A DNA stretch of 64,000 nucleotides from Butyrivibrio sp. AE2015. Lineage in GTDB: Bacteria > Bacillota > Clostridia > Lachnospirales > Lachnospiraceae. Below, piece after piece: positions 10,348 to 53,650 of the stretch. The notes beneath the pieces were generated by a model, which ran no database searches, was not told where the DNA came from, and saw only the letters and a program-made list of their open reading frames with translations. The number at the start of each line of letters is the position of its first letter. Position 1 is the first letter of the stretch. Where the stretch lies: the NCBI RefSeq assembly GCF_000420825.1, contig NZ_ATVR01000004.1, positions 1 to 64,000 of the forward strand. The letters are read 5' to 3'. The position numbers were made by a program, and so were the translations under genes.

Positions 10348-13300
10348 GTGAGAGAGATAGTGGAGAGACTCCTTAAGGGGCAGTTTGAATATGATGATAA
10401 GAGCCTGGATTTTTCTGTGCCCAGAGTTGAGATCGCTTTGGGCCCGGATGAAGAAGTCGAAGGCTCTTTTACTATATTCGGACCTGAGAACAGGTTTGTC
10501 ACCGGCAGGATCTCCTCTACAGATCTTAGGATGGAGGTCATAACTCCTGAATTTTCAGGTTCACCATATGAAGTTTCTTACAGGTATGATGCAAGAGGTC
10601 TTTCCAAGGGCGATGTTCACCAGGGGGATTTCAGGATCATATCCAATCAGGGAGAGTATGTTCTTCCGTTTGTAGTCACTGTAAAGCATGATCATATAGC
10701 ATCAAGTCTTGGTGATATCAAAAATCTTTTCCATTTTGCAAATTTAGCCAAAACAGATTGGAAGGAGGCAGTTGACCTCTTTTATTCCAAGGATTTTATA
10801 AGCGTTTTTCAGGGGAATGACAGCCAGTACGAGAGTCTTTACAGAGGCCTTTCTGTGGGTGGGGTCAATGAGCAGAACGTAGAAGAGTTTCTCATAAGCA
10901 TCAATAAAAAACAGCCTGTCGAATATATTATCGATCAGGAAGAGATACATATCGATTTTACAGGCACACTTCATGACTATGGAATCCTCATAACAAGAAA
11001 TGGTTGGGGATATACTGATCTTCATGCAGATGTGGATGGGGATTTTATAAGCCTTGATAAAACAGATTTAAATGATGAGAGTTTTAGCGGAAGTTCATGC
11101 CATATAAAAATAAGGCTAAGGACTGAGATGCTCCATGAGGGCAATAATTTTGGCAGGATTACTTTCAGAAATGCCTTTTTTAAGACGGAACTTCCTGTAA
11201 CTGTGGCAGTTGAACTTACCGGCAGGCACCCTACAGCGGACTACCAGGAAAAGAAACAGCTAAAGGTTGACCTTGTAAAGGCCTATGAGAATTACAGATG
11301 TAAAAAGATTACAGCCAGAGCCTGGGTTTCAGATACCGGCAAGATAATTGCCAAGATGAATGCGATCGATGATAAGGACCTGGAGTTCAGACTCTATACG
11401 GCCCATTACTATATTACGGCAGGAAGAGTTAATGAGGGCAAGTGGATCCTTGACAGAACGGAAAAAGAGGCCCTTGATTCGCCCGGAGATACACTATATA
11501 GCTACTTTCTCTATCTCTCTACTCTGTGTAGTAAGGAAGAGAGCTATCTGAATGATGTGGCTGAGAGACTTGAGGGGATCTTCAGGCGCAATCCAGACAA
11601 CTGGCGTATTGCCTGGCTTATTCAGTATGTGGCTGATGAGTATGCGTCATCAAGCCCCAGAAAGTGGATGAGTATCGAAGAACAGTTTGCACTTGGATGC
11701 AGGAGTCCGATACTTTACCTCGAAGCAATGGGGCTGCTTAATGAGACGCCTTCAATCCTCACAAGACTTGAGGATTTTGAACTATATGTTCTTGAGTATG
11801 GCGCTAAAAAACAGATCATAAGCCTTAATCTGATAGACCAGATAGTATATCTTTCAACTCGCGTTCGCGGCTATAGCGACAGGCTCTACAGGATTTTGAA
11901 GGCCTGCTACGAGGTAAAAGAAAATGATCTTGTCCTTGAAGCTATCGTATCTCTTTTGATAAAGGGAGGTAAGACTTCAAAGACAGCTTTTGAGTGGTAT
12001 GTTCTTGGTGTTGACAGACAGCTTCGCATAACAAGGCTCTATGAGTATTACATGATGTCCATCTATGTAACTGATGAGGGAACTCTTCCGTGTGAGATCA
12101 GCAAGATGGTGCTCATGTACTTCTCTTACCAGAGCGACCTTGAATATGATAAAAACGCTATTCTTTACAGATATATCCATGAGAGAAGGCAGGACTACCC
12201 TGAGCTCTACGAAACTTACCTGCCACAGATCGAGAAGTTTCTTATGGCTCAGCTTGACAGGGGCAGGGTCAATAAGGACCTTGGATATCTTTACAAGAAT
12301 CTGCTCACAAAGCAGATGGTTGATGCAGCCAATGCACCAAAAGTTTTGTATGTCATCAACACTGCTGAGATAAAGACCGCAGATAAAAGAGTCAACAGCG
12401 TCTGCGTTATTTACGACAAGTGTGCAAAGGAAATGCGTTATCAGGTAACTGATGGCAGGGCTTATGTTCCTTTGTATGGCAATGATTACACAGTTCTTTT
12501 GACAGACAGGGATGATAACAGGTACGCGACTACAATTCCCTATACCAATATCAGAATGATGATACCCGGGAAGCTGACAGACTACGCGATTCCTTATATT
12601 CAGAAGGGAAAAGAGAACCTGGATCTGTTTTTGTGTGATCTTGGCAAGAATGCTTACACCATCGATATGGACAATGTGAGCAGATACAGAGATCTTGCTG
12701 ATTCAGAGTATGTCAGAAAAAAGGTAAAGAATGAGATAAGAAATAATCTTATCAGGTTCTACTATGACAATGATTTTACAAGGCAGCTTACTGAGTATCT
12801 TGTGAATATCGATCCGCTTGATATAAGCACCACGGAGCGCGATGAGCTATTGGAGCTTATGGTAATGGCAGGACTTTACGATAAGGCCATGGAGTGGATA
12901 AAGACCTATGGAACCTATTCACTTGATCCTAAGGTTATCCTTCGCATGTGCTCAAGGATGCTTGACAGGGATATATATGACAATGGACCACAGGAAGTTG
13001 AGATAGCTTATTATGCCTTTTCCAAGGCAAAATATGATGAGCAGCTGTTAAAGTATCTGGTGGCAAACTTTAACGGTACCATCAAAGAGATGAGGGATGT
13101 GTTCAGGGCAGCGCAGTCTTTTGGCCTTGATACCTATCCACTTGCTGAGCGAATGCTTCTGCAGATGCTCTATAGCGGTTCCTTTGTAGGTGAAAAAATC
13201 GAGATCTTTAAATCCTATGTAAAGAGCGGAGCCAGCACTGATATTGAGGTTGCCTTCCTTTCACAGTGTGCATATGACAGTTTTGTTCGTGGAAAAGTCA

Positions 13301-13938
13301 CCGACGGATTTGTCTATCAGAGGATAGAGAGTCTTGCTCTAATGGGAGTTCCACTTCTTGATGTGTGCAAGCTGGCATATCTTAGGTATTACGCCAACGA
13401 GAAAAAGACTGGCGAAGAATATAATCAGGATGTGGCTATAGCATTCCTCAGAGAACTTGTGGATAAAAATACATATTTCCCGTTCTTTACAGAGTATGAA
13501 GAGCTTCTTCCTGAAATGGTGCAGTTTACCGATAAGACCATGCTTGAATACAGGACATTGCCGCAGAAGCACTGCTATGTCCATTACAGACTTGCAGGGG
13601 ATGAGGACAATGAGTACAAGAGCATGGAAATGCACGAGATGTATGAAGGAATATTCGTTGCTTCTTTTGTTCTTTTCTTTGGAGAACAGCTCCAGTACTA
13701 CATCACAGAAGACTCAGAAAATGGAGAGGATGTTCTCACAGAGAGTGGAACCATTCAGAAGAGCGATATTATCAAGACTCATACAGGCAGCAGGTTCAGC
13801 TATATCAACGATATCATGATCGGAGAGACTCTCCAGGATTATGACACTGTGGATAAGCTTCTTTTGGAGCTTGGTAAAAAGAGATTTGTTTGTGACAGGC
13901 TGTTTACGGCCTTTTTAGATAATGGCGAAGAAGGATGA
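10348..13938 (+). CDS. Large cytoplasmic helical-repeat protein (resembles DUF5717 family)
   Basis: 1196 residues, GTG start supported by GGGGTGAG about 5 bases upstream. There is no signal peptide or membrane helix. The N-terminus (about 1-120) and a segment at about 200-300 look like all-beta, Ig-like domains. Residues 310-1050 are almost entirely helical with TPR/HEAT-like spacing. A last beta-rich part (about 1065-1150, around HCYVHYRLAG and EQLQYYITED) precedes the end. From memory it resembles the Lachnospiraceae family annotated DUF5717, of unknown function. It is first of four co-directional genes with gaps of 6, 12 and 16 bases, so it is probably the scaffold of a multi-protein complex (inference). 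Confidence 0.8.
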   Translation: MREIVERLLKGQFEYDDKSLDFSVPRVEIALGPDEEVEGSFTIFGPENRFVTGRISSTDLRMEVITPEFSGSPYEVSYRYDARGLSKGDVHQGDFRIISNQGEYVLPFVVTVKHDHIASSLGDIKNLFHFANLAKTDWKEAVDLFYSKDFISVFQGNDSQYESLYRGLSVGGVNEQNVEEFLISINKKQPVEYIIDQEEIHIDFTGTLHDYGILITRNGWGYTDLHADVDGDFISLDKTDLNDESFSGSSCHIKIRLRTEMLHEGNNFGRITFRNAFFKTELPVTVAVELTGRHPTADYQEKKQLKVDLVKAYENYRCKKITARAWVSDTGKIIAKMNAIDDKDLEFRLYTAHYYITAGRVNEGKWILDRTEKEALDSPGDTLYSYFLYLSTLCSKEESYLNDVAERLEGIFRRNPDNWRIAWLIQYVADEYASSSPRKWMSIEEQFALGCRSPILYLEAMGLLNETPSILTRLEDFELYVLEYGAKKQIISLNLIDQIVYLSTRVRGYSDRLYRILKACYEVKENDLVLEAIVSLLIKGGKTSKTAFEWYVLGVDRQLRITRLYEYYMMSIYVTDEGTLPCEISKMVLMYFSYQSDLEYDKNAILYRYIHERRQDYPELYETYLPQIEKFLMAQLDRGRVNKDLGYLYKNLLTKQMVDAANAPKVLYVINTAEIKTADKRVNSVCVIYDKCAKEMRYQVTDGRAYVPLYGNDYTVLLTDRDDNRYATTIPYTNIRMMIPGKLTDYAIPYIQKGKENLDLFLCDLGKNAYTIDMDNVSRYRDLADSEYVRKKVKNEIRNNLIRFYYDNDFTRQLTEYLVNIDPLDISTTERDELLELMVMAGLYDKAMEWIKTYGTYSLDPKVILRMCSRMLDRDIYDNGPQEVEIAYYAFSKAKYDEQLLKYLVANFNGTIKEMRDVFRAAQSFGLDTYPLAERMLLQMLYSGSFVGEKIEIFKSYVKSGASTDIEVAFLSQCAYDSFVRGKVTDGFVYQRIESLALMGVPLLDVCKLAYLRYYANEKKTGEEYNQDVAIAFLRELVDKNTYFPFFTEYEELLPEMVQFTDKTMLEYRTLPQKHCYVHYRLAGDEDNEYKSMEMHEMYEGIFVASFVLFFGEQLQYYITEDSENGEDVLTESGTIQKSDIIKTHTGSRFSYINDIMIGETLQDYDTVDKLLLELGKKRFVCDRLFTAFLDNGEEG

Positions 13939-13944
13939 TAGGAT

Positions 13945-15246
13945 ATGCTTTTTGGTAGTTCGGATGAAAAGCGCTTTGTGCTGGGATATGATTTGGGCGA
14001 GAAGGTTTCGCAGATAAGCTATCTGGCTTCTGACGCGGATATGCCTGAGACTCTCTCAGTACTGGCCGGAGCAGAACTGTATAATATTCCTACCGTGCTG
14101 TGCAAAAGAAATGATGTAAATCAGTGGTTTTATGGAAAAGAGGCAGTGCGCCATATTCAAGAGGGGGATGCAACTGCTGCTCCTGATCTTTTGGCATCGG
14201 CAAGGGCTGGTAAACCTGTTATGGTGGCAGGGGCTGAGTATGACCCCATAGCTCTTTTGACCCTGTTTGTCAAAAGGAGTTTGTCTCTTTTATCTATGGA
14301 GCTTTCACTTGATAATGTGGATGCCATAATGATAACAACAAGTAGCCTTGACCACAGAATGGTGCAGGTTCTAAATGCTGTTACCTCAGCTCTTGAGCTT
14401 AAGACAAAGAACATTTTTTATCAGAGTCACCAGGAGAGCTTTTATAATTACATGCTGTACCAGCCGGATGAACTGATGCATCATGTGATCCTTGCCTGCG
14501 ACTACGACATGGAAAAACTTCGTGTCTATGAAATGACTCTAAACCACAATACAACGCCTATTGTGGCAACTATTGAAGACAGCTCTTTTGACAATTTAAG
14601 GATTGATCCGGCTGGATTTCCCAAGGAAGCTGCTTTGTACCACAAGACCTGCGAGAGGCTTGATGATGAGTTCCTTACGATAATGCAGAAGGTCTGCGGT
14701 GAAAAAATCATATCTACTGTGTTCCTGCTAGGGGACGGCTTCAGGGACAAATGGGCAAAAAGGTCTTTGGAGTTTTTGTGCAGGACAAGAAGGGTTTTCC
14801 AGGGCAATAATCTCTTTAGCAAGGGAGCCAGTATTGCAGCAAGAGAAAGGATAAAACCTTCGGAGCATTCCAAAAAATATGTATTCCTTGGAGAGGATAA
14901 ATTAAAATCCAATCTCGGAATGAAGCTGATGAAATGCGGAACAGAAGTGTATTGTGCACTTCTTGATGCGGGAACCAACTGGTATGAAGCAGAGGTTTCT
15001 ATCGAGATAATCATGGATCCAAGTGGAATACTTAATGTTGAAGTTACTCCGCTCACAGGAAAGATGCCCAAAATGGTGCAGCTTTATCTTGACGGTCTTG
15101 AAAAACGACCTGAAGGAACAACGAGACTTAGAATTTCCATGAAGATGAACTCTGTAAATGAGGTTGGCGTCAAGGTTCAGGATTTGGGCTTTGGAGAGCT
15201 GTTCCCATCTTCGGGAAAGACCTGGGAGCAGATAATTGAACTGTAA
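13945..15246 (+). CDS. Actin/Hsp70-fold protein (resembles DUF5716 family)
   Basis: 433 residues. The motif order is that of the ASKHA (actin-hexokinase-Hsp70) superfamily: a phosphate-1-like LGYDLGEKVSQISY (D16, G18), a strand AIMITTSS (128-134), a phosphate-2-like segment VILACDYDMEKLRVYEM (181-197) in which the usual glycines are replaced, an adenosine-type loop VFLLGDGF (259-266) and a helix cap SKGASIAA (292-299). The last 90 residues are beta-rich and contain IIMDPSGILNVEVTPL, close to the DANGILNV strand of the Hsp70 substrate-binding domain. I infer an Hsp70-like protein with a degenerate phosphate-2 loop. Its partners are the flanking genes. Confidence 0.75.
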   Translation: MLFGSSDEKRFVLGYDLGEKVSQISYLASDADMPETLSVLAGAELYNIPTVLCKRNDVNQWFYGKEAVRHIQEGDATAAPDLLASARAGKPVMVAGAEYDPIALLTLFVKRSLSLLSMELSLDNVDAIMITTSSLDHRMVQVLNAVTSALELKTKNIFYQSHQESFYNYMLYQPDELMHHVILACDYDMEKLRVYEMTLNHNTTPIVATIEDSSFDNLRIDPAGFPKEAALYHKTCERLDDEFLTIMQKVCGEKIISTVFLLGDGFRDKWAKRSLEFLCRTRRVFQGNNLFSKGASIAARERIKPSEHSKKYVFLGEDKLKSNLGMKLMKCGTEVYCALLDAGTNWYEAEVSIEIIMDPSGILNVEVTPLTGKMPKMVQLYLDGLEKRPEGTTRLRISMKMNSVNEVGVKVQDLGFGELFPSSGKTWEQIIEL

Positions 15247-15258
15247 TGAGGCTATGTT

Positions 15259-16101
15259 ATGAGTAAACCAATTCTTTGTATCGGAACATATGCGAAGACT
15301 CCCTTTCATATAGAAAAGGTGGGCAAAAATGTCTACTGCATTGAGGAACTTTGCTACATACTTGTAAATAATGCTTTCCTTTTGGATGAGGACAGCTTTG
15401 GAAATGACCTTTTTGACTGGATCGAGAAGGAGTGTTCTCTTGAGAGGCTATCGGATGAGCTTCGGAGCATGTACATGAAGAAGTGCTCGATTGCTTCTCT
15501 TGCAGGAACCATTCTTGACTATGTTGGCTATAACAGCAAAAAGGAAGTTGACAGGACTGAAGAGATACTCAGAGCCAATGCAGGAATGGATGTCTACAGG
15601 AAAAAGATGGCCCGTGCGGATTATCTTTTGAAAAATAACCGCTATAGCATGGCATTCAAGGAATATGAATTTCTTTTAAATAATACGGACGAACTTGATA
15701 AGAAGACGAAAGCAAAGATAGAACACAATGAAGGCGTTATGTATGCTAGACTCTTCCTCTTTGAAAGAGCAGCGGATATGTTTCTAAAAGCCTACAGGGA
15801 TGGTGGCGATGAGGCTTCGCTTATTCAGTATCTTGGTGCTGTGAGAATGAATCTTTCCGACAAGGAATATGTTTCATTTGTGGCGGATAATGAAGATATG
15901 TATGAGGCTTCAATGGTTCTTGAGAAAAGAGTAAATGAGCTTGAAGAACTGTTTGGAAGCAGCAAGTCCAATCTTGCGGTGGGAACTCTTTCTGTCTACA
16001 AGGCAGAGGGCAAGATGGGCGAGTATTATGATGTAGTGGGGAAGATCACAGATGAGCTGAAAACCGAGTACAGAGATCTCGTCAAAAGTAAAGTAGGATA
16101 A
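15259..16101 (+). CDS. TPR-like protein of the four-gene cluster
   Basis: 280 residues, no signal peptide or membrane helix. The N-terminal 100 residues form a mixed domain (starting MSKPILCIGTYAKTPFHI), then helical hairpins with TPR-like character (about 113-190: ADYLLKNNRYSMAFKEYEFLL, FERAADMFLKAY), and a charged helical C-terminus. No family is recognised. It starts 12 bases after the actin-fold gene, with TGAGG upstream, and is followed 16 bases later by the membrane protein, so it probably links the soluble and membrane parts of the complex (inference). Confidence 0.7.
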   Translation: MSKPILCIGTYAKTPFHIEKVGKNVYCIEELCYILVNNAFLLDEDSFGNDLFDWIEKECSLERLSDELRSMYMKKCSIASLAGTILDYVGYNSKKEVDRTEEILRANAGMDVYRKKMARADYLLKNNRYSMAFKEYEFLLNNTDELDKKTKAKIEHNEGVMYARLFLFERAADMFLKAYRDGGDEASLIQYLGAVRMNLSDKEYVSFVADNEDMYEASMVLEKRVNELEELFGSSKSNLAVGTLSVYKAEGKMGEYYDVVGKITDELKTEYRDLVKSKVG

Positions 16102-16117
16102 GCTGGGGGACTTACGT

Positions 16118-17311
16118 ATGGGACTTTTGGATGACATTTTTGGAAGAAATAAACCAGATGACAGGGTGATGCAGGAAGAACTTCAGGACTGGAATGATAT
16201 TGTCTATACCAGAAAAGACCTGGATATGGACGACCCGGTTCAGAGAAGAGAGTATATAGGGAGCTGTCTTCAGCAGATGGAAGAAGCATCCAGGCAGCTT
16301 GATGCCCTTGAAGTAGAATATGCAGATGTTACCAGCCATTTGAGGGATATGGAGGAAATTGATTCACTTCCGCCTGAACAGAGGGCTGAAGTCACTGATT
16401 GTGCCCAGAGAATAATCGAATCCCAGGAGCAGCAGGAAAAATTTGTAAAGCGCAAGAGCAAAATGAGCGATGAAGACTTTGAACATATGGAAAGGCTTCA
16501 GGCTCAGGCACAGATCGGAGCAGAGAAGCTCCTTGAAGCAGAAAGCTTTCAAAAGAAGATAAAGAATGATCTAAAGAGGCTTGATTCAGAGCATCAGGCA
16601 TATCTTTTCAGAGAAGAGGAACTTGAGAAAACTATCGAGAGTTCCAAGACCCTTACTATAGTAATAGGAGTAACTCTCTGTCTTATAATTATTTTTTTAC
16701 TGATATTACAGTTTGGACTTAAGCTTAATGTTACCTATGGCTTTATGATAAGCATTCTTTTATCTGCCATAGTGATAACTGTGCTGTATGTTCAGAGTAC
16801 CGGAGCGGTGGTTGAATTAAAGGGCGTAAAAAAGTCTATTTCAAGGCTTATAATGCTTCAGAATTCAGTAAAGATAAGGTATGTAAACAATACCAATCTT
16901 ATAGATTATCTCTGTATGAAGTACAGAGTTATGAATTCTTCAGAGCTCAGCGGCATGTACGATAAGTACCTTAAGGAGAAAAAAGAGCGCGAGAAATACG
17001 AGGACTCAAGAAGAAGCCTTGATGCCAACCAAAAGGATCTTATTTATATCCTCAGGCACTACCGGGTAAAAGATCCTGATATATGGGTTCATCAGGTGGA
17101 GGCTCTTATAAGCCACAATGAGGAGGTTGAAATAAGGCACAGCCTCAATGTACAAAGACAGTCACTTAGAAAGCGAATGGAATACAACAGAAATATCGTA
17201 GCAGGTAATGCCAAAAGAGAAATTGAAGACACTGCAAAGCTTTATCCGCAGTATGCTCAGGAAATACTTGATATGGTTTCAAGATACGAAGAAATGTACC
17301 CAAATGTGTAA
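16118..17311 (+). CDS. Coiled-coil protein with two membrane helices
   Basis: 397 residues. Residues 15-175 are charged heptad-rich helix (Glu, Gln, Lys, Arg), interrupted near 82-90. Two membrane helices follow (about 178-200 and 205-227) joined by a short loop, then another long helical coiled region. Both coiled arms should face the cytoplasm, giving a hairpin anchored in the membrane. No family is recognised. It is the last gene of the cluster, preceded by GGGGG. Its stop codon lies within the loop of the terminator hairpin. Confidence 0.75.
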   Translation: MGLLDDIFGRNKPDDRVMQEELQDWNDIVYTRKDLDMDDPVQRREYIGSCLQQMEEASRQLDALEVEYADVTSHLRDMEEIDSLPPEQRAEVTDCAQRIIESQEQQEKFVKRKSKMSDEDFEHMERLQAQAQIGAEKLLEAESFQKKIKNDLKRLDSEHQAYLFREEELEKTIESSKTLTIVIGVTLCLIIIFLLILQFGLKLNVTYGFMISILLSAIVITVLYVQSTGAVVELKGVKKSISRLIMLQNSVKIRYVNNTNLIDYLCMKYRVMNSSELSGMYDKYLKEKKEREKYEDSRRSLDANQKDLIYILRHYRVKDPDIWVHQVEALISHNEEVEIRHSLNVQRQSLRKRMEYNRNIVAGNAKREIEDTAKLYPQYAQEILDMVSRYEEMYPNV

Positions 17312-17329
17312 ACATTTGGGTATTTTTTT
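17298..17329 (+). terminator. Terminator of the four-gene cluster
   Basis: Perfect 10-bp stem ACCCAAATGT / ACATTTGGGT (17298-17307, 17312-17321) with loop GTAA that includes the TAA stop of the preceding gene, followed by A and seven T residues. The last codons of the gene are part of the terminator. Confidence 0.93.
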
Positions 17330-38295: not shown

Positions 38296-38736
38296 ATGGA
38301 ATTATCCAACTTAAGACCTGCTGAAGGTTCAGTTCAGAGCGATAATTTTAGAAGAGGCCGTGGTCATGGTTCAGGAAACGGCAAGACTGCTGGTAAGGGA
38401 CACAAGGGTCAGAAGGCTCGTTCAGGAGCTCCAAGACTTGGTTTCGAAGGTGGTCAGATGCCACTTTTCAGAAGACTTCCTAAGAGAGGCTTCAAGAACA
38501 TCAATCGTAAGAATATCGTAGGTATCAACGTAAGCGTACTTGAAGTATTCGACAACGGAGCAGTTGTTGATGTTCAGGCACTTAAGGATATGGGCATCAT
38601 TAAGAAAGAGCTTGATGGTGTAAAGATTCTTGGAAATGGTGAATTTACTAAGAAGCTTACGGTTAAGGCTAATGCTTTCAGTGCATCAGCTAAAGAAAAA
38701 ATCGAGGCACTTGGTGGAACAACAGAGGTGATCTAA
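38296..38736 (+). CDS. rplO: Ribosomal protein L15
   Basis: 146 residues. The Gly/Arg-rich N-terminal arm ([20 protein letters not shown]; core [15 protein letters not shown]) and [18 protein letters not shown] are diagnostic. AAGGAGG follows the structured spacer. Its stop overlaps the secY start by one base. Confidence 0.99.
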
Positions 38737-40055
38737 TGTTTAAGTCCCTAATGAATGCATTAAAAGTAAAAGAAATTCGTTTGAAAATTCTATTTACTCT
38801 TGCAATGCTAGCCCTGATCAGACTTGGTTCTGCAATTCCAGTACCTGGAATGAATACATCAGTATTTAGAAATTGGTTTCAGGGTTTGACAGAGAGTGAT
38901 GCATTTGGCTTTATGGATCGATTTACCGGTGGATCATTTGAGAACATGTCAATTTTGGCACTCAATATCACACCATACATTACATCTTCTATCATTATTC
39001 AGCTTCTCACAATTGCTATTCCTAAGTTTGAGGAGTGGCAGAGAGATGGTGAAGATGGAAGAAAGAAGCTTACAGCTCTTACAAGATATATAACTGTAGC
39101 TTTAGCACTTATCGAATCCATCGCAATGTCAATCGGATTCTACAGAAATACAGGCTTCTTAACATCACAGTCTATTTTCCTTGTAGTTCAGATTGTAGCA
39201 GCACTCACAGCTGGTAGTGCATTCCTGATGTGGATTGGTGAAAGAATCACAGAAAATGGGGTTGGAAACGGTATATCAATAGTTCTGACTATCAACATTC
39301 TTTCAAGAATGCCGTCAGATATTAGCTCACTTTTCGGTCAGTTTGTGAGCGGAAAGCCTATTGCAAGGGGAGTAGTATCAGCAATTGTTATTATTGCAGT
39401 TATTATTGCAATGGTAGTATTGGTCGTTCTTCTTAATGGTGCTGAGCGCAGAATTCCTGTTCAGTATGCTAAGAAGATCCAGGGAAGAAAAACTTACGGT
39501 GGAAGCCGTTCAGAGATTCCTCTCAAGGTCAATACAGCAGGCGTTATGCCTATCATTTTTGCAATGTCACTCTTCCAGTTCCCTATCATTATTAGTCAGC
39601 TCGTTGGCTATAATGGCTCAGGATTCTGGGGACAGTTTATTGCATATTTAAACCAGAGTAACTGGTGCAATCCTAACCATTGGAATTATTCAATTGGTTT
39701 GGTTGTTTACATTTTACTGCTTATCTTTTTTGCATATTTCTACACATCAATCACATTTAATCCGATTGAGATTGCAGATAATATGAAAAAGCAGGGCGGC
39801 TTTATTCCTGGAATCAGACCAGGTAAGCCTACAAGTGATTACCTTACAAGCATTCTGAACTATATCATTTTTATTGGAGCATGTGGTCTTACAATCATTG
39901 GTGTATTACCTATCTTCTTTAATGGTATGTTCGGTGCAAGTGTTTCATTTGGTGGAACAAGCCTTATCATCGTGGTAAGCGTTATCTTAGAGACAATCAA
40001 GCAGATTGAATCTCAGATGCTTGTACGTAATTACAAAGGATTCCTGGAAGATTAA
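38736..40055 (+). CDS. secY: Protein translocase subunit SecY
   Basis: 439 residues, ten membrane helices. It is the central channel of Sec-dependent export. Seen: ITPYITSSIIIQLL, GNGISI, RRIPVQYAKKIQGR and IPLKVNTAGVMPIIFA, all canonical. It starts at the TAATG junction with rplO. The next gene is adk, after a 108-base spacer. Confidence 0.99.
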   Translation: MFKSLMNALKVKEIRLKILFTLAMLALIRLGSAIPVPGMNTSVFRNWFQGLTESDAFGFMDRFTGGSFENMSILALNITPYITSSIIIQLLTIAIPKFEEWQRDGEDGRKKLTALTRYITVALALIESIAMSIGFYRNTGFLTSQSIFLVVQIVAALTAGSAFLMWIGERITENGVGNGISIVLTINILSRMPSDISSLFGQFVSGKPIARGVVSAIVIIAVIIAMVVLVVLLNGAERRIPVQYAKKIQGRKTYGGSRSEIPLKVNTAGVMPIIFAMSLFQFPIIISQLVGYNGSGFWGQFIAYLNQSNWCNPNHWNYSIGLVVYILLLIFFAYFYTSITFNPIEIADNMKKQGGFIPGIRPGKPTSDYLTSILNYIIFIGACGLTIIGVLPIFFNGMFGASVSFGGTSLIIVVSVILETIKQIESQMLVRNYKGFLED

Positions 40056-40069
40056 TTGGTAACTTAAAA

Positions 40070-40112
40070 GAGGTCGCAGGGGAGCATATGCGCCCTTGCT
40101 GCCTCTTATTTG
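40070..40112 (+). other. Hairpin between secY and adk
   Basis: AAGAGG...GCCTCTT encloses GCA-GGGGAGC/GCGCCC-TGC pairs, giving a long imperfect stem followed by a T-rich but not continuous tract. It could be a weak terminator or an mRNA processing site that tunes adk-map-infA relative to secY. Confidence 0.5.
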
Positions 40113-40148
40113 TCTTTAATCAGAAAATAATGATATCATTTAACATAA

Positions 40149-41559
<1,411 letters not shown>

Positions 41560-41582
41560 TAGTAAAGGATAGGAGGAAAGAA

Positions 41583-41801
41583 ATGTCTAAGGCTGATGTA
41601 ATTGAAATTGAAGGAAAGGTTATTGAGAAGCTTCCTAACACAATGTTCCAGGTTGAGCTTGAGAATGGTCATGTTGTTCTTGCTCATATCAGTGGAAAGC
41701 TTCGTCAGAACTTCATCAGAATCTTACCTGGTGATAAGGTAACTCTTGAACTTTCACCATATGACCTTACAAAAGGAAGAATTATTTGGAGAGACAAATA
41801 A
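41583..41801 (+). CDS. infA: Translation initiation factor IF-1
   Basis: 72 residues from the ATG at 41583, with AGGAGG at 41571-41576; an upstream in-frame TTG is discounted. It has the OB fold with [38 protein letters not shown] and KGRIIWR. Usually rpmJ and rpsM follow directly; here a terminator does. Confidence 0.99.
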
Positions 41802-41812
41802 TTTTGAAATCG

Positions 41813-41842
41813 TCCGTGGCAAATTTGCCACGGATTTTTTTT
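41813..41842 (+). terminator. Terminator of the S10-spc operon
   Basis: TCCGTGGCAAATTTGCCACGGA (41813-41834) is a perfect palindrome followed by eight T residues. It ends the operon after infA. Confidence 0.95.
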
Positions 41843-41869
41843 GCCACATGTTTTTCTCCTTCGTATAAA
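41841..41869 (+). promoter_or_regulatory. Promoter of the TRAP leader
   Basis: TTGCCA (41841-41846), 17-bp spacer, TATAAA (41864-41869). The -35 overlaps the tail of the infA terminator. Predicted start near 41876, giving a leader of about 228 bases before the TRAP binding protein. Confidence 0.6.
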
Positions 41870-41912
41870 TAATCAGAAAACAAAAATCACTCATGAAAAG
41901 GAGGATAACAAT

Positions 41913-41990
41913 ATGGTAAGTTTAATGGCAAAAGCATTTATAATTGCAACGTTAGTATGTGAGGTTATCCTCGTGTTAAAAATATGCTAG
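41913..41990 (+). CDS. 25-residue hydrophobic leader ORF
   Basis: MVSLMAKAFIIATLVCEVILV then LKIC, stop TAG. It has one of the strongest ribosome sites in the window (AAAAGGAGG, 7-8 bases before ATG) and would form a single membrane helix. GAGGATAAC in that site (41901-41909) is the exact reverse complement of GTTATCCTC (41964-41972) within codons 18-20, so the ORF can mask its own ribosome site. It could be a real small membrane protein or a sensing leader peptide for the TRAP genes. Confidence 0.5.
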   Translation: MVSLMAKAFIIATLVCEVILVLKIC

Positions 41991-42018
41991 TCAATGATAA
42001 TAATGTCCGATTTTACTG

Positions 42019-42095
42019 CCTCCCGCGGTAACATATAATGGCATTGTCGAAAAGACAATGCCATTTTTTTAGTTGATTTTCAAGAAAACGGGAGG
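42019..42095 (+). promoter_or_regulatory. Anti-Shine-Dalgarno pairing in the TRAP leader
   Basis: CCTCCCG (42019-42025) is the exact reverse complement of CGGGAGG (42089-42095), the ribosome site of the TRAP binding-protein gene. The pairing would enclose the terminator hairpin and block translation. It suggests control of TRAP expression by RNA structure. Confidence 0.5.
42037..42070 (+). terminator. Terminator/attenuator upstream of the TRAP genes
   Basis: AATGGCATTGTC / GACAATGCCATT stem (42037-42048, 42054-42065), GAAAA loop, run of T to 42070. Only 33 bases separate it from the TRAP start codon, too few for another promoter. TRAP transcription must therefore read through it, or begin elsewhere. 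Confidence 0.9.
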
Positions 42096-42103
42096 TTACA
42101 CAA

Positions 42104-43189
42104 ATGAAAAAAAGAGTTGTATCAGTATTTATGGCACTGGCAATGGGGCTTTCTATTGTTGCATGTGGAGTAACAGCGCCAGAGGCACCTGCTGCAGAAC
42201 CAGCAGCTGAGCAGAAAGAAGAAACTGCAGCTGAGCAGACTAAGGCACCTGAAGCAGTTACACCTGATGCAGATGCTATCACACTTGTTATGGCAGAGGT
42301 AAACCCTCTTGATACCATAGTAGGTATGACAGATCAGAAGTTTAAAGAAGAAGTAGAAGCTAGATCTAACGGATCAATCATTATTGATCTTCAGGCTAGT
42401 GGTGTTCTTGGCTCAGAGAACGATGTTCTTGACACAATGCTTGGTGGTGGCGGAACAATTGATATGTCCAGAATCTCAGCTTTCGCTCTTACAAGCTATG
42501 GCGGACAGAAGTCAATGCTTCTTTCACTTCCTTATATCTTTACAAGCCGTGATCATTTTTGGAATTTTGCTACATCAGACCTTGCACAGGAATTCCTTCA
42601 GGAGCCTTCAGAGAACGGTAGTGGTGTAAGAGGTCTTTTCTACGGAGAAGAAGGATTCCGTCATTTCTTTACAGTTAATGAAATCTCAGATATCAATTCA
42701 TTCAAGGGAATGAAACTTCGTGTTTCAAATGACCCTATCATGAATGGTCTTGTAGAAGGACTTGGAGCATCTCCTACAGTAGTAAGCTTTGGTGAACTTT
42801 ATTCAGCACTTCAGACAGGAGTTGTAGATGGCGCTGAACAGCCAATTGCAAACTATAAGTCAAATGCATTCCCTGAGGTTGCTCCTTATATGATCCTTGA
42901 TGGACATACTCTTGGTGCTATCCAGGTAATCATCACAGATGAAGCTTGGAATAAGCTTTCTGCTGAACAGCAGCAGGTTCTTGTCGACGCAGGTAAGGCT
43001 GCTTCTGAGTACAACCGCTCAATCTCAGAAGAAAAAGAGAATGCTGTATTAGAAGAACTTAAGGCTGATGGAGTTACAATCATTGAGGTTGAAGATATCA
43101 CACCTTGGCAGGAAGCAGTTAAGCCTGTAATTGAGGAAAACATTAAAGGTCTTGAAGATTATTACCAGAAGTTAGTTGATATGAAGTAA
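42104..43189 (+). CDS. TRAP transporter substrate-binding lipoprotein (DctP family)
   Basis: 361 residues. Lipoprotein signal with lipobox SIVAC, Cys21, then an Ala/Glu-rich linker to about 58. The DctP fold shows GSIIIDLQASGVLGSE, the conserved Arg region GMKLRVSNDPIMNG that binds the carboxylate of ligands, and TGVVDGAEQP. CGGGAGG is the ribosome site. It delivers an organic acid to the DctQ-DctM permease that follows. The ligand is unknown. Confidence 0.94.
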   Translation: MKKRVVSVFMALAMGLSIVACGVTAPEAPAAEPAAEQKEETAAEQTKAPEAVTPDADAITLVMAEVNPLDTIVGMTDQKFKEEVEARSNGSIIIDLQASGVLGSENDVLDTMLGGGGTIDMSRISAFALTSYGGQKSMLLSLPYIFTSRDHFWNFATSDLAQEFLQEPSENGSGVRGLFYGEEGFRHFFTVNEISDINSFKGMKLRVSNDPIMNGLVEGLGASPTVVSFGELYSALQTGVVDGAEQPIANYKSNAFPEVAPYMILDGHTLGAIQVIITDEAWNKLSAEQQQVLVDAGKAASEYNRSISEEKENAVLEELKADGVTIIEVEDITPWQEAVKPVIEENIKGLEDYYQKLVDMK

Positions 43190-43207
43190 TAAATATAAAG
43201 GGGAAAT

Positions 43208-43732
43208 ATGGAATCATTTTTTAAAACAGTTGATAGTATTAAGCCTTTATATGATGTGACATACAAGATTATGCTTGTGATATGTAAGATTCTTCTTGTG
43301 GCAGACATCATTATCACAAGTATGAGCGTTTTTGGCAGATATATCCCTTTTATCCCGGATCCATCCTGGACAGAAGAAATAGTTCTTACCCTGATGGCAT
43401 ATATGGCAGTGTTATCTGCAGCCCTTGCCATCAGGAGGGGCGCTCATATCAGAATGACAGCCCTTGACAGATATCTTCCAACTAAACTCATTAAAATATT
43501 AGATCTGTTATCTGATGTATGCATCATGTTTTTGGCTTTTGTAATGCTTATAGTTGGTTGGCAGTATGCTTCTACCATTGGAAGTAAGGGTGTATATGTA
43601 TCTCTTCCTAAATTATCAAGATTTTGGATGTATTTTCCAATTCCTGTGGCTGGTCTTGCTATGATCATTTTTGAACTTGAAGCAATATACAACCACATCA
43701 AAGGATTTTTTGTAAAGGAGGAGAAAAACTGA
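43208..43732 (+). CDS. TRAP transporter small permease (DctQ family)
   Basis: 174 residues with four membrane helices (about 20-40, 55-75, 92-112, 133-155). SWTEEIVLTLMAYMAVLSAALAIRRGAHIRM carries the typical RxGxHI-like motif (RRGAHI). It pairs with DctM. Its stop shares a base with the dctM start. Confidence 0.93.
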   Translation: MESFFKTVDSIKPLYDVTYKIMLVICKILLVADIIITSMSVFGRYIPFIPDPSWTEEIVLTLMAYMAVLSAALAIRRGAHIRMTALDRYLPTKLIKILDLLSDVCIMFLAFVMLIVGWQYASTIGSKGVYVSLPKLSRFWMYFPIPVAGLAMIIFELEAIYNHIKGFFVKEEKN

Positions 43733-45027
43733 TGACTGCTAATTCTACAGCAATTGCTATATTGCTAATTAGCTTTCTGGTCATGATCTTTTTGAGATTC
43801 CAGATAGCGTATGCAGTAGCATTATCCTCAATCCTTTGCCTTTTGTATCAGGGACTTCCTCTTACAACTGTTTGTCAGCAGATGGTAAAGGGAATAAGTT
43901 CTTTTTCACTCATGGCAGTACCGTTCTTTATAACCATGGGATGTATCATGGGAAGTGGAGGAATTTCTGAAAAGCTGATTGCTTTGGCCGATGCCTGCGT
44001 AGGCTGGATGACCGGCGGTATGGCCATGGTAAACATAGTTGCTTCCTATTTCTTTGGAGGAATTTCTGGTTCTGCAGCAGCAGATACTGCCTCTCTTGGA
44101 AGTATTTTGATCCCTATGATGGTTGATCAGGGATATGACGATGACTTTTCAACTGCGGTAACAATTACTTCATCTTGCGAAGGTTTGCTGGTTCCTCCCA
44201 GTCATAATATGGTCATTTATGCGATGAGTGCAGGTGGAGTCTCCGTAGGAAGCCTGTTTTTGGCAGGTTACATTCCCGGAGCACTTCTTGCAGCTTCACT
44301 TATGATAGGCTCTTACATTATTTCAAAAAGACGCCACTATCCAAAAGGTGAGGCATTTAGCATAAAGAAATTTGGAAAACAGCTCGGAATATCTTTCTGG
44401 GCCCTTGCCGCAGTAGTTATCGTTGTAATTGGTGTTGTTGGAGGTCTTTTCACAGCTACTGAGTCTGCAGCTGTCGCAGTAATCTACAGCCTTATAGTCA
44501 GCGTATTTATCTATAAGGGCCTTGACCTTAAAGGAGTATGGAAAACTCTTGAGCAGTGCGTAGACACACTTTCAATAGTTCTTATCCTTATTTCAACATC
44601 AAGCATTTTTGGTTACTGCCTTACAACCCTTCATGTACCTGATCTTGCAGCTAATGCAATCATAGGACTTACAAGAAACCCAATACTGATCGCGCTTTTA
44701 TTGAACTTAATCCTGCTGGTACTTGGATGTATCATGGATATGGCGCCGATCATTTTGATTGCAACACCAATTCTTTTACCTATTGCTACATCAATTGGAA
44801 TCAATCCGATACAGTTCGGTATAATGATCATCTTAAACTGCGGTATTGGACTTCTGACACCACCTGTTGGAGCAGTTCTTTTCATAGGCTCTGCGGTTGG
44901 CAAGGTAAAGATGGAAAAAGTAGTAAAGGCTACATTGCCATTCTATCTCTGCATGATATTAGTTCTTTTACTGCTTACCTTTATTCCAGAGATCAGTATG
45001 TTCCTGCCGAACCTGCTTATGAAATGA
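43732..45027 (+). CDS. TRAP transporter large permease (DctM family)
   Basis: 431 residues, about twelve helices. Seen: GISGSAAADTASLGSILIPMM, PPSHNMVIYAMSAGG and PILLPIATSIGINPIQFGIM, followed by GLLTPPVGAVLF, all signature segments of DctM. It uses the sodium or proton gradient to import the ligand caught by the binding protein. AAAGGAGGAG overlaps the end of dctQ. Confidence 0.96.
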   Translation: MTANSTAIAILLISFLVMIFLRFQIAYAVALSSILCLLYQGLPLTTVCQQMVKGISSFSLMAVPFFITMGCIMGSGGISEKLIALADACVGWMTGGMAMVNIVASYFFGGISGSAAADTASLGSILIPMMVDQGYDDDFSTAVTITSSCEGLLVPPSHNMVIYAMSAGGVSVGSLFLAGYIPGALLAASLMIGSYIISKRRHYPKGEAFSIKKFGKQLGISFWALAAVVIVVIGVVGGLFTATESAAVAVIYSLIVSVFIYKGLDLKGVWKTLEQCVDTLSIVLILISTSSIFGYCLTTLHVPDLAANAIIGLTRNPILIALLLNLILLVLGCIMDMAPIILIATPILLPIATSIGINPIQFGIMIILNCGIGLLTPPVGAVLFIGSAVGKVKMEKVVKATLPFYLCMILVLLLLTFIPEISMFLPNLLMK

Positions 45028-45048
45028 TCGTTATTTGAAAGGCTTTTT

Positions 45049-45519
45049 ATGGAGTATAGATATAATTGTGATGTTAAAACTTCAGACATATGGAAAATGG
45101 CTATGCGTCGTACTTACAAGTCATTTGTTGGCATTATAAACGTTGTGTTTACGGTTGCAATGATCCTTTTGACTATCAGATTCTGGGGTGCTTCTTCAGG
45201 ATTTATAAAAAGTCTCATGATCTTTGGATGCACTCTTTTTCCTGTGATCCAGCCTCTTGCAACATATGGCATGAGCGCAAAGCAGCTTGAAAATCTGCCC
45301 AAGGACATGGTACTAACATTTAATGATAAGGGCGTTTTGGTGGAAACCGGAGGCAGATTTGAGAACATTAAGTGGAAAAATATATCAAATGCCATAAAAA
45401 GAAATAATATGATCATTGTTATGTCAGATGACAGACATGGTTATATGATCACTGACAGAGTATTGGGCAAGGAAAAAGACTTATTTTTTGATTATCTTTG
45501 CTCAAAAATAACAGCTTAG
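45049..45519 (+). CDS. YcxB-like membrane protein
   Basis: 156 residues. Two membrane helices (about 27-45, 51-70) are followed by the YcxB-like pleckstrin-type domain: VLTFNDKGVLVETGGRFENIKWKNI, then HGYMITDRVLGKEKDLFF-like end. Function of the family is unknown. It starts 21 bases after dctM, with AAAGGC upstream, and is probably co-transcribed. Confidence 0.75.
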   Translation: MEYRYNCDVKTSDIWKMAMRRTYKSFVGIINVVFTVAMILLTIRFWGASSGFIKSLMIFGCTLFPVIQPLATYGMSAKQLENLPKDMVLTFNDKGVLVETGGRFENIKWKNISNAIKRNNMIIVMSDDRHGYMITDRVLGKEKDLFFDYLCSKITA

Positions 45520-45535
45520 TTTGAATAGTTTTTTT

Positions 45536-45590
45536 AAAGAGGCGGCGCTATAATTATAACAATAACTATAACGAAGCCTCTTTATTTTTT
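45536..45590 (+). terminator. Hairpin/terminator ahead of the histidine kinase gene
   Basis: AAAGAGGC (45536-45543) pairs with GCCTCTTT (45576-45583), followed by A and six T residues. The 32-base loop contains TATAATTATAAC, which could include the -10 of the kinase promoter. Confidence 0.6.
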
Positions 45591-45598
45591 ACCCATTT

Positions 45599-47119
45599 AT
45601 GAATAAAATTAGACAATTCTGGAATAATCTCAAGATCATAAACAAAATAAAAGTTTTTACAGGCAGCGTATTTTTTGCTATTTTGGCAATTCTTCTTTTT
45701 GATGTCTGGATCATTAAGCTCTTTATGATGGATTTCAATGACATTATGGAGGATAACTCCAAAAGCGGTGAGGTAATAAGCGCTCTGAATAAGGAAATAG
45801 AAACATTTGATATGTACGTTCACAGTGCAGATCCTTCCAATAAAACGGAATGGACCACGTGTGTCAACGAAAGCGAAAAGACTCTGAATAAAGTACCACT
45901 TGATTATGGGCGACTTGGGCAAGAGCGCTATGCGCTTATGTTTTCCTTTAAGACTGCTTATGGCGAATATAGCGTGGAAAGAGATAAGGTCATAGAGGAT
46001 TTTCAGGATGGAAACGTTCTGATAGCAGATCTTTACAGGGTATATGGAATGCAAAAGTATCTGCTTCAGTACGCGCAGCATTTTGTTGACGTGACAATGA
46101 AGGAAGGCAATGCCAATTACCAAAAGCTCATGCCCGTCATCATAAGTGTCCCATTTTTGGTTTCAGCTATCGGCATCGTGGTATTTTTTATAATATTTGA
46201 AATCTCAAAGATCGTGAACGCGTCAATTACCACTCCTGTGCTGACTCTTGCAAACGCTTCACGTAAAATTGCTGCAAATGACTTTTTTATTGATGACATT
46301 GAAGTCAGCAGCCAGGATGAGATTGGCGAGCTCGTAACTGCTTTTAACAAAATGAAATTTGCTACAGGCGAGTATATAAAGGCATTGGAAGACAAGCGAG
46401 TAGCGCTTGATCAGCTTCATGAGCAGGAGATGGAAAACCTAAAGATTGAAAAGCAGCTTGAGACAATGAACCTTGAGCTTTTGAAGAGCCAGATAAACCC
46501 GCATTTTCTTTTTAATACACTCAATGCTATAGCGGGAACCGCGAATCTGGAGGATGCGCCTACCACAGAGCAGATGATAGAAGCCTTAAGCTCATTGTTT
46601 AGATATAACCTAAAGACCCAGGCAAAAGAAACTTTGCTTTCGCAGGAACTAAAAATATCAAAAGATTATATGTATCTTCAGAAAATGAGATTTGGTGAGA
46701 GAGTTCAATTTGAAATTGACTCAGAGGTGGATGAAAATGCAGTTATAGTGCCAACTTTCACCTTTCAGCCTCTTTTGGAAAATGCAATTATTCATGGCAT
46801 ATCCAAGAAAGTTGAGGGAGGAAAAGTGACCATAAAGATACGGCATGTAGGTGGAAGGCTGCATATAAATGTGGAAGATACCGGAGTTGGCATGGATGAG
46901 ATAACTCTGTGGAATATAAATAAGCAGCTCTATGATCAGGAACGTGATAAGAATCATGAAAAATCAGTGGGAATTGGACTTGGTAATATATGTAAGCGCA
47001 TCAGAGCGATGTACAGCGATGGACATTTCGAGATTACCAGTAAAGAAGGAGAGGGAACAGTGATCTTCATAGACATTCCTTTCTTATACCCTCAGATGCA
47101 GGTGGATAGCAATGTATAG
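45599..47119 (+). CDS. Sensor histidine kinase, YesM/LytS type
   Basis: 506 residues. Helices at about 17-44 and 177-200 bracket an extracellular sensor loop; HAMP follows (about 201-255), then coiled coil and the His_kinase domain with phospho-acceptor His302 in SQINPHFLFNTLNAIAG. ATPase boxes: PLLENAIIHGI, DTGVGMDE, GIGLGNICKRI. No Shine-Dalgarno is visible before the ATG at 45599, although the first helix requires a start near here. It is partnered by the next gene and probably controls the TRAP genes. Confidence 0.94.
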   Translation: MNKIRQFWNNLKIINKIKVFTGSVFFAILAILLFDVWIIKLFMMDFNDIMEDNSKSGEVISALNKEIETFDMYVHSADPSNKTEWTTCVNESEKTLNKVPLDYGRLGQERYALMFSFKTAYGEYSVERDKVIEDFQDGNVLIADLYRVYGMQKYLLQYAQHFVDVTMKEGNANYQKLMPVIISVPFLVSAIGIVVFFIIFEISKIVNASITTPVLTLANASRKIAANDFFIDDIEVSSQDEIGELVTAFNKMKFATGEYIKALEDKRVALDQLHEQEMENLKIEKQLETMNLELLKSQINPHFLFNTLNAIAGTANLEDAPTTEQMIEALSSLFRYNLKTQAKETLLSQELKISKDYMYLQKMRFGERVQFEIDSEVDENAVIVPTFTFQPLLENAIIHGISKKVEGGKVTIKIRHVGGRLHINVEDTGVGMDEITLWNINKQLYDQERDKNHEKSVGIGLGNICKRIRAMYSDGHFEITSKEGEGTVIFIDIPFLYPQMQVDSNV

Positions 47120-47897
47120 AATATTAGTGGCAGACGATGAACCAATTGAACGACAGGTTATTAATAAGAAGATAAAAGCTTTTTTTCCGAATCTGGTTGA
47201 AGTTTTTGTGGCTGAGAATGGAATTGAGGCTGTGAAGAAATATACCGAGAATATGTGCAATATAGCTGTTCTTGACATTGAGATGCCTGGAATGAACGGA
47301 CTTGAAGCAGCAACGCAGATCAGAAACCTTGATAAAGACTGTAGCATTATCTTTCTCACGGCATTTGATGAATTCAGCTATGCCAAAAGAGCTATTGAAG
47401 TAAGGGCCCTGGATTATCTTTTAAAACCTGGTTCTGATGAGGAACTGATCAATATTTTGGAAGAGGCCTTCAGAATTTGCGATAGTAACAGCAAAGCCCC
47501 CAAAGCAGAGGTTTCTCAAAAGGATTCAGAATCAACGCCTTCCTTGGAATATAGCGAAGTTGATATACATAGCAATACTCTCATCAGGGATATTACCGGG
47601 TATATAGAAAGCCATTATATGGAAGACATAGCTCTTCAGGATATCGCAGGATATCTGAATTATTCCGACGTTTATTTCTGTAAACTTTTCAAACAGAACT
47701 TTGGTAAGAATTTTATTACTTACCTGAATGAGTTCAGAATGGCCCGGGCAAAAGATCTTTTGGCTGATCCAGGAATCAATATAAAAGATGTCGGATATAA
47801 GGCGGGATTTAGAGATCCCAACTATTTTACCAGGATATTTAAGCGGATGGTTGGGATGACACCAAGCGAGTATAGGAGCGGAGCTTTGGAAAAATGA
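47112..47897 (+). CDS. Response regulator, YesN type (receiver plus AraC HTH)
   Basis: 261 residues. The receiver domain has the acidic pair D8-D9, phospho-acceptor Asp55 (AVLDIEMPG), Thr83 and Lys105. A linker (110-150) leads to two AraC-type helix-turn-helix motifs (DIALQDIAGYLNYSDVYFCKLFKQ and IKDVGYKAGFRDPNYFTRIFK; core GFRDPNYFTRIFKR). It overlaps the kinase by eight bases and the next gene by four. Confidence 0.96.
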   Translation: MYRILVADDEPIERQVINKKIKAFFPNLVEVFVAENGIEAVKKYTENMCNIAVLDIEMPGMNGLEAATQIRNLDKDCSIIFLTAFDEFSYAKRAIEVRALDYLLKPGSDEELINILEEAFRICDSNSKAPKAEVSQKDSESTPSLEYSEVDIHSNTLIRDITGYIESHYMEDIALQDIAGYLNYSDVYFCKLFKQNFGKNFITYLNEFRMARAKDLLADPGINIKDVGYKAGFRDPNYFTRIFKRMVGMTPSEYRSGALEK

Positions 47898-48910: not shown

Positions 48911-48937
48911 AAAAGGGAGGTTTGATCCTCCCTTTTT
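48910..48937 (+). terminator. Terminator after the two-component/binding-protein operon
   Basis: AAAAAGGGAGG / CCTCCCTTTTT stem (48910-48920, 48927-48937) with TTTGAT loop. Its flanking A- and T-runs let it serve the convergent reductase gene as well. Confidence 0.92.
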
Positions 48938-48940
48938 GAA

Positions 48941-49930: not shown

Positions 49931-50063
49931 ATAACCCTCCCTAGATAAAACTTTGTTATAGTTTAATACATTTTTAGGAAAAAAGCACAGAAAAAAAGCG
50001 CGATTTCTGTTAAAAAACAATCATATTTTTTAGTGAAAAATTAATGCACATAATGTGACATCA

Positions 50064-50072
50064 TGCTATAAT
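50064..50072 (+). promoter_or_regulatory. Extended -10 promoter of the uracil permease gene
   Basis: TG-C-TATAAT (50064-50072), a consensus extended -10, 50 bases before the ATG. The 191-bp gap from 49931 holds the divergent reductase and permease control regions; no pyrimidine attenuator is evident. Confidence 0.6.
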
Positions 50073-50121
50073 TCACTTTGGTAAAAAACAACCTTTCAGG
50101 TTAATAAAACGGAGGAGAAAA

Positions 50122-51504: not shown

Positions 51505-51521
51505 TAAACGTGTAATATCCT

Positions 51522-51568
51522 ACCAGGATTTCGGTAAAAGATTTTATCGAAATCCTGGTATTTTTTTT
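51522..51568 (+). terminator. Terminator after the uracil permease gene
   Basis: Stem ACCAGGATTTCG / CGAAATCCTGGT (51522-51533, 51548-51559), with inner GTAAAA/TTTTAT pairs, then A and eight T residues. It separates the accessory block from the alpha operon. Confidence 0.95.
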
Positions 51569-51579
51569 GTAAAAACCTG

Positions 51580-53605: not shown

Positions 53606-53650
53606 TGATATAATTAACTTGTTAACAAACCACTTAAGGAGGGTATATCA

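Follow-up and report, generated by a model that had tools for sequence, protein, structure and literature searches.

A cluster of four tightly spaced genes, here called A to D, occupies positions 10348-17311 of the window, by which we mean the whole stretch of DNA that was analyzed: the first 64,000 nucleotides of contig NZ_ATVR01000004.1 (assembly GCF_000420825.1) of Butyrivibrio sp. AE2015. The first gene encodes a large scaffold protein of the DUF5717 family, and the second encodes a DUF5716 protein that is predicted to have an Hsp70 fold without the ATPase motifs. Comparison with other families of the order Lachnospirales points to a longer operon, with several Hsp70s and a GrpE-domain protein, from which this short one probably arose by loss. 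The features of the cluster are as follows.

10348..13938, + strand: gene A, DUF5717 scaffold (1196 amino acids, GTG start), equal to the fused N and S of the longer operons
13945..15246, + strand: gene B, DUF5716 pseudo-Hsp70 (433 amino acids), with a nucleotide-binding domain (NBD) and a beta substrate-binding domain (SBD-beta), without lid, ATPase motifs lost
15259..16101, + strand: gene C, TPR-type adaptor (280 amino acids), joined to B in some Butyrivibrio
16118..17311, + strand: gene D, membrane coiled-coil protein, accessory (397 amino acids)
17296..17323, + strand: terminator-like hairpin of the intrinsic type, 12 pairs and a T run, overlapping the 3′ end of gene D

All four genes run in the same direction, and an open-frame check confirmed the coordinates and the gaps of 6, 12, and 16 bases given in an earlier interpretation of this DNA (the sequence-only reading). 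The terminator proposed there also held, being a strong hairpin followed by a T run; the terminator scan of the region, both strands, saw 12 sites compared to 5.6 expected by chance. The single promoter proposed there did not. None was listed in the 85-base gap 5′ of gene A, in a scan whose total was below chance (12 matches compared to 18.2 expected), and the gene upstream of A, 85 bases away on the same strand, encodes a MacB/FtsX-type permease. Because this permease gene is co-directional, read-through into the cluster could occur.

Protein A is a DUF5717 protein over almost its full length, matching PF18984 and PF18983 at 1094.4 and 317.9 bits (cut-offs, 25 and 25), and protein B matches DUF5716 from residue 127 onward (355.7 bits; cut-off, 34.7), in agreement with the likeness to these two families suggested earlier. 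The Pfam entries DUF5717_N (PF18984), DUF5717 (PF18983), and DUF5716_C (PF18980) are described there as families of unknown function. C and D matched no Pfam or NCBIfam family above cut-off.

Matches to DUF5717_N came from 49 of 61 relatives and, with one genome sampled per genus, from 196 of 200 Lachnospiraceae genomes; two of the four genomes without it carry DUF5716, so that 198 of the 200 have one or both. In 40 family loci chosen from the 196 matches, with long contigs favored, A, B, and C were all present and in the order A-B-C without exception (40 of 40 genera), and D was present in 22. The proposed single conserved unit is upheld, with the correction that its obligatory core is A-B-C and that D lies outside this core. 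A gene-neighborhood survey, suggested earlier as a check, found co-occurrence: by called frames, 77 of the 80 named loci (78 with L171) had A-B-C-D contiguous and in this order, with median gaps of 15, 18, and 12 bases. These 77 comprised 74 plain loci, one with B and C fused, one with an extra D, and one with an extra called frame (L127 bears a second D, and L147 bears an extra called frame). The exceptions were L163, where the contig ends 94 bases past C, L174, which has only A, and L171, where D was masked by the frame caller. Some of the 80 named records carry other names (Muribaculaceae, Clostridium, Ruminococcus, and uncultured bacterium), and since 15 of the 80 share the exact A piece with an earlier-fetched locus, the two sets are not independent. 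In L079, B was masked by an overlapping frame and was located on re-check between C and A, and the A of L083 is short (853 amino acids). The closest named relative is L099 from Butyrivibrio sp. Su6, whose A protein is 97% identical. NCBI assigns Butyrivibrio to Lachnospiraceae, Lachnospirales, and the family and order genomes sampled here are accordingly taken as members of these two. Across the family loci, the median identity to the window proteins is 27 to 29% for all four (23 to 41 rows), and the cluster proteins evolve fast although the scaffold gene is retained family-wide.

At the class level, DUF5717_N was found in 11 of 291 genomes, and the 10 above cut-off were all Lachnospiraceae. 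At the phylum level, the scaffold profile A4 matched 6 of 299 genomes, of which 4 were Lachnospiraceae and 2 were marginal (E 8e-4 to 9e-4) and were taken as chance. Within the order, DUF5716 is common and far from universal (89 of 196 genomes, 82 above cut-off). A Lachnospiraceae-type A-B-C set was also seen at L204 in genome G668 of family f8 (86% complete, contamination 5), possibly on a stray contig.

The AlphaFold model of B (predicted local distance difference test [pLDDT], 90; predicted template modeling score [pTM], 0.85) has an Hsp70 NBD and SBD-beta, with residues 8-432 alignable to DnaK and Ssz1 chains. The top row of the structural comparison was Ssz1 (Z score, 23.2; root mean square deviation [rmsd], 3.3 over 276 residues), in a tie with DnaK chain 7kru_B (Z, 22.6; rmsd, 6.9 over 394 residues, almost the whole chain). 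The helical lid (SBD-alpha) is not present in the model, in which the chain finishes in a strand at residues 426-432 without C-terminal helices. Furthermore, the phosphate motifs GTT and GGGT were intact in none of 40 B proteins. B had been taken for an ASKHA-fold, Hsp70-like protein, and the fold is borne out by the model; however, an active Hsp70 or an ATP-driven actin is unlikely with these motifs lost, as is polymerization on nucleotide in the manner of MreB or ParM. A PDB sequence search with the B profile A2 gave a single chance match (E 1.3). The kinship to Hsp70 came to light through structure and through the H2 relatives in the longer operon instead. It is the present analysis that connects DUF5716 with Hsp70, with the longer operon, and with C and D.

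PF18984 spans two adjoining genes instead of one in a number of other Lachnospirales families, and the longer operon has the order N-S-H1-G-H2-H3-H4-T, sometimes followed by M, where H1 and H3 are Hsp70s, G is a GrpE-domain protein, H4 is an Hsp70/VWA protein, T is a TPR protein, and M is a relative of D. For instance, the operon at locus L040 encodes proteins of 427 (N), 907 (S), 559 (H1), 645 (G), 535 (H2), 546 (H3), 719 (H4), 393 (T), and 402 (M) amino acids, and its H2 matches both DUF5716 and HSP70; locus L042 holds the same gene set. By class models, 19 of the 36 loci fetched, which come from 31 genomes, have H1-G-H2-H3-H4-T as an uninterrupted run; the 36 were picked through DUF matches and not at random. 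Many of the other 17 appear to be truncated by stretch or contig ends. Called frames intervene in L041; L051, L191, L192, and L201 are interrupted or broken up, and L054 is a reduced operon. M/D was seen in 5 of the 36 loci.

The window proteins match the classes of this operon collinearly. A matches both N (127.5 bits) and S (305.7 bits), B matches H2 (185.1 bits) and weakly H3 (36.8 bits), C matches T (61.5 bits), and D matches M (97.7 bits, with a model built from only two proteins), whereas none of the four matches the H1, G, or H4 class models. Since the T of L040 is a TPR protein by Pfam, the TPR-like character read into the third protein is upheld. Among the Hsp70 classes, GTT and GGGT were both intact in 11 of 11 H1, 10 of 10 H3, and 8 of 9 H4 proteins (the ninth H4 row, from L042, is a piece of a split frame without the N-terminal motifs), compared to 0 of 11 H2 proteins. 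This means that H2 was already a pseudo-Hsp70 inside the longer operon.

Three side observations concern these loci. First, an Hsp70 with a C-terminal VWA domain at the lid position is encoded at L040 12517-14676 and L042 2340-3824. Second, the operon at L042 99-13929 (genome G039) looks half decayed, with H4 in two frames (494 and 198 amino acids), T in two (195 and 123), and a G of 279 amino acids; it represents either an intermediate of reduction or sequencing errors. Third, N and S, which are separate genes in most longer operons, are fused in L185, L194, and L198 of family f24 (1326 to 1329 amino acids) and apart in L195 of the same family. The fusion seen in A therefore arose more than once or is unstable.

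The joining of Hsp70, GrpE, and TPR parts recalls the GAP1-N2-type HSP70/GrpE conflict (immunity) systems of Kaur et al. 2020, of which the cluster might be a derivative; that paper (PMC7159879) describes, from actinobacteria and firmicutes, a theme in which HSP70 and GrpE accompany a protein of FNIII repeats fused to DnaJ or TPR. However, neither the four window proteins nor the nine proteins of the L040 operon gave a GAP1 or GTPase match at E 1 or better. In addition, PADLOC models gave 0 matches at E 0.01 to the four window proteins, housekeeping genes were seen among ten neighbors scanned, and the cluster is near-universal in the family. Such a derivation is therefore highly improbable. 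The single weak PADLOC match each of H1, H3, H4, and M of L040 was put down to generic Hsp70/coiled-coil similarity.

A tree of the Hsp70 classes, built from 76 chosen rows, grouped the 13 B rows as a single clade (100/100), with the H2 of L042 as its sister (100/99) and then the H2 of L187 and L203 (100/96). The operons of L042, L187, and L203 still encode H1, H3, and H4 (the H4 of L042 is split). With a DnaK root, longer operons lie on both sides of B, which makes loss in Lachnospiraceae the simplest reading, and B appears to be a descendant of the H2 of the longer operon. The gene content agrees with this. The H1, G, and H4 models found no match in 123 short-operon loci, and all 77 frames matched there by the H3 model were B itself. 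In the window genome, the HSP70 matches are one DnaK and two short actin-like proteins whose length suggests MreB, and there is one GrpE. Nine family genomes had 2 to 4 HSP70 matches and one GrpE each (with a second, sub-cut-off one in G390), compared to 7 to 11 HSP70 matches and two or three GrpE matches in ten longer-operon genomes, the HSP70 counts being match pieces and not genes. On this evidence, Lachnospiraceae lost the GrpE protein along with three Hsp70s whose motifs are intact and kept the scaffold and the dead Hsp70.

A second reduction was found in genome G051 (draft, 96% complete), where L054 5816-10915 holds N-S-H2 followed by WecG/TagA-, YitT-, and SecA-type genes. The only HSP70 matches in this genome are DnaK, H2, and two actin-like proteins; the restriction to N, S, and H2 applies within the stretch, the genome-wide search having covered HSP70. 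Another genome of family f16, G559, carries the longer operon (L186). N-S-H2 appears to have been retained independently in this second lineage, and since the scaffold and pseudo-Hsp70 survived motor loss twice, they look like the functional core. The direction could in principle be the reverse, with the short operon ancestral and the Hsp70/GrpE genes inserted later elsewhere, and gene counts by themselves give no polarity. But B is a decayed Hsp70 that pairs with H2 of the longer operon, longer operons flank the B branch on both sides if the tree is rooted with DnaK, and N and S are mostly separate in longer operons and fused in A. We give the reversed direction very little chance.

Three broader roles were also tried and rejected. 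Sporulation as the main role was rejected because Spo0A_C was found in just 66 of 100 family genomes, with no match in the window genome, and motility because Flagellin_N was found in just 53 of the 100, although the window genome has flagellins. In the same 100 genomes, DUF5717 is missing only from G365, G373, and G435, and G365 has DUF5716. Defense or a mobile element was rejected on the PADLOC result for the four window proteins, the housekeeping genes among the ten neighbors scanned, and the family-wide presence.

Of the remaining two proteins, C is joined to B as a single protein of 726 to 759 amino acids in L056, L057, and L058 (Butyrivibrio), and frames of 724 to 760 amino acids at the DUF5716 match were seen in 4 of 37 genomes of the genus. 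L138 is the same DNA as L057. This gene fusion argues for physical association of B and C. D carries the only transmembrane-like stretch among the four cluster proteins by hydropathy, which bears out its earlier description as a membrane coiled-coil protein.

16634..16813, + strand: D, two-helix transmembrane hairpin, residues 173-232 (hydropathy)

The AlphaFold model of A has a mean pLDDT of 86. Beta domains at both ends, which the sequence-only reading had predicted, are present in it, and the domains are arranged as follows.

10399..10692, + strand: first PapD/ASH-like immunoglobulin (Ig) domain, residues 18-115 (structural comparison of the AlphaFold model)
10918..11226, + strand: second PapD/ASH-like Ig domain, residues 191-293 (structural comparison of the AlphaFold model)
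11230..12357, + strand: first alpha-solenoid, probably TPR-like, residues 295-670 (modeled helices and structure matches)
12361..12555, + strand: middle beta domain, residues 672-736 (model secondary structure)
12574..13527, + strand: second alpha-solenoid, residues 743-1060 (model secondary structure)
13534..13758, + strand: C-terminal beta domain, residues 1063-1137, then helices (model secondary structure)

The structural re-comparison of A effectively covered residues 14-293 and 303-434 and was confined to listed candidate families. The first Ig domain matched FimC-type chaperones and SCS2 (Z, 10.7 to 11.7; rmsd, 1.8 to 2.1 over 92 to 95 residues) as well as single domains of HYDIN and CEP192 (Z, 10.6 to 11.1; rmsd, 3.1 to 5.3), and the second matched SfaE, FimC, and the GH115 beta domain (Z, 11.2 to 11.8; rmsd, 1.9 to 2.3). 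The first solenoid matched 9rtt_Q and IFIT1 at Z 10 to 11 over 119 to 128 residues, a level that repeats can reach by common arrangement. A PDB sequence search with the A profile A3 gave no match. With Ig/ASH-like domains joined to solenoids, and an Ig part resembling ciliary central-pair proteins and CEP192, A might polymerize into a cytoskeletal or coat-like assembly, with B as an actin-like cap or spacer. However, B aligns with Hsp70 through the SBD-beta, which actins are not known to have, and is without the phosphate motifs, and fold likeness proves no function. This assembly is unlikely.

We consider the chances about even that the cluster encodes one cytoplasmic scaffold complex, derived from a multi-Hsp70/GrpE machine by collinear loss of the ATP-using parts and working without an ATPase of its own. 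The lack of an own ATPase, with a role as a scaffold or client-binding complex, is the most likely mode of work. The analysis shows the gene set and its conservation, the descent of each part, the loss of the ATPase motifs, and the lack of the other genes in the loci examined and of additional Hsp70s in the window genome. A physical complex of the cluster proteins is what we infer from the operon, the co-inheritance, and the B-C fusion; client binding, the membrane site, and the hand-over to DnaK are hypothesized. In such a complex, A would hold B directly or through C. B, keeping the NBD and the peptide-binding beta domain with no ATP cycling, would serve as a structural and/or client-binding subunit and would offer its beta domain to a client or partner. 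D, where present, may tether the A-B-C complex at the membrane. Near the membrane, the complex could then act as a holdase/adaptor or as a scaffold for assembly, and it may pass clients to the housekeeping DnaK. In its broader form, a family-wide membrane-linked chaperone scaffold that shed its motors at least twice and has the pseudo-Hsp70 as its ATP-independent client-binding core, the proposal seems to us about half likely to be right. The "chaperone assembly" suggested earlier fits best the longer operon of the other families, which lay outside the DNA that was read.

Alternatively, B may be a co-chaperone in trans, with A-B-C recruiting the cell's DnaK and GrpE in place of the lost ATPase. 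Each of the 21 scanned genomes has a strong DnaK and GrpE match, and Ssz1 operates beside the active Hsp70 Ssb, according to PMC8476630 and PMC7083937. However, no DnaJ match at E 1 or better was found in the four window proteins and none in the L040 operon, though a partner elsewhere is possible, and the HPD motif was seen in none of 47 checked proteins of the N, S, G, T, and M classes. Recruitment in trans is a possible but rather doubtful explanation.

Several points weigh against the scaffold complex without its own ATPase. First, pocket residues are still kept in B (the first Asp in 36 of 40 proteins and the first Gly of the adenosine motif in 40 of 40), and the Ssz1 structure 4gni has ATP bound. 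For these two reasons, B might bind nucleotide without hydrolysis. Second, D is absent from 18 of the 40 genera, which means that membrane tethering is not essential to the core. Third, L174 has A without B or C. Fourth, the B and H2 branches are long, some long ones pair (H2 of L187 with that of L203), and the tree program warned of this. Fifth, a second DnaK-like gene occurs in some Lachnospiraceae genomes (G390, G493); that of G390, the one placed in the tree, groups with DnaK and not with the operon classes. Finally, the pTM of the A model is only 0.55, so the relative placement of its domains and its overall shape are unsure.

The ten neighbor genes scanned encode four class I/II aminotransferases, two MgsA/RarA-type ATPases, and one each of a SAICAR synthetase, a PurF-like glutamine-amidotransferase/phosphoribosyltransferase, a valyl-type tRNA synthetase, and an ABC solute-binding protein. 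In the window at 38736-54607, SecY (38736-40055) and RpoA (53651-54607) are set apart by a histidine kinase (45599-47119), a xanthine/uracil-type permease (50122-51504), and a DctP-type solute-binding protein (47894-48910), whose PHROG is also matched by a second frame at 42104-43189. The ribosomal-protein region thus seems to be interrupted by a transport block unrelated to it.

Lachnospiraceae are among the commonest gut and rumen bacteria. A fast-evolving scaffold gene that 196 of 200 genera carry and to which no function has been assigned marks a large gap in the picture of their cell biology, and through the tie to the longer operon the two DUFs become a chaperone question that experiments can address. 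The short operon would be a natural experiment, the remnant of an Hsp70 machine after motor loss, and, if the proposal is true, its products would form a core complex found throughout the family and new in kind for bacteria. Among open-license PMC papers, literature searches turned up no characterized system of such composition, as had been anticipated, and nothing on DUF5717 or on such an operon; the only match for DUF5716 was a title on MMR pathways and curcuma derivatives. The short operon would represent what is left of a dedicated Hsp70 machine without its ATPases, and that machine itself seems not to have been described.

Three known systems come closest. The GAP1-N2 theme (PMC7159879) resembles the longer operon in its adjoining HSP70, GrpE, and TPR parts, and perhaps in its Ig/FNIII-type part, the Ig domains of the cluster looking PapD/ASH-like; HSP70 and GrpE are present in the longer operon and not in the window cluster. 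The cluster differs from the theme as a family-wide chromosomal core without GAP1-N2 and GTPase matches. With the DnaK-DnaJ-GrpE machine, the longer operon shares three motif-intact Hsp70s and a GrpE-domain protein, whereas it has no detected J-domain, its H4 bears a VWA domain after the SBD, and the window cluster has neither an ATPase nor GrpE. The third is Ssz1, the unusual Hsp70 of the fungal ribosome-associated complex. Ssz1 is not known to need ATP hydrolysis. It differs from B in that the 4gni structure holds ATP whereas B lost GTT and GGGT; in addition, neither the four window proteins nor the L040 operon showed a Zuo1-like J-domain partner, and B is not known to have a tie to the ribosome. 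In fungi, Ssz1 acts with Zuo1 and the active Ssb (PMC8476630, PMC7083937), and it is an Hsp70 fold retained as a subunit of a complex, as B is proposed to be.

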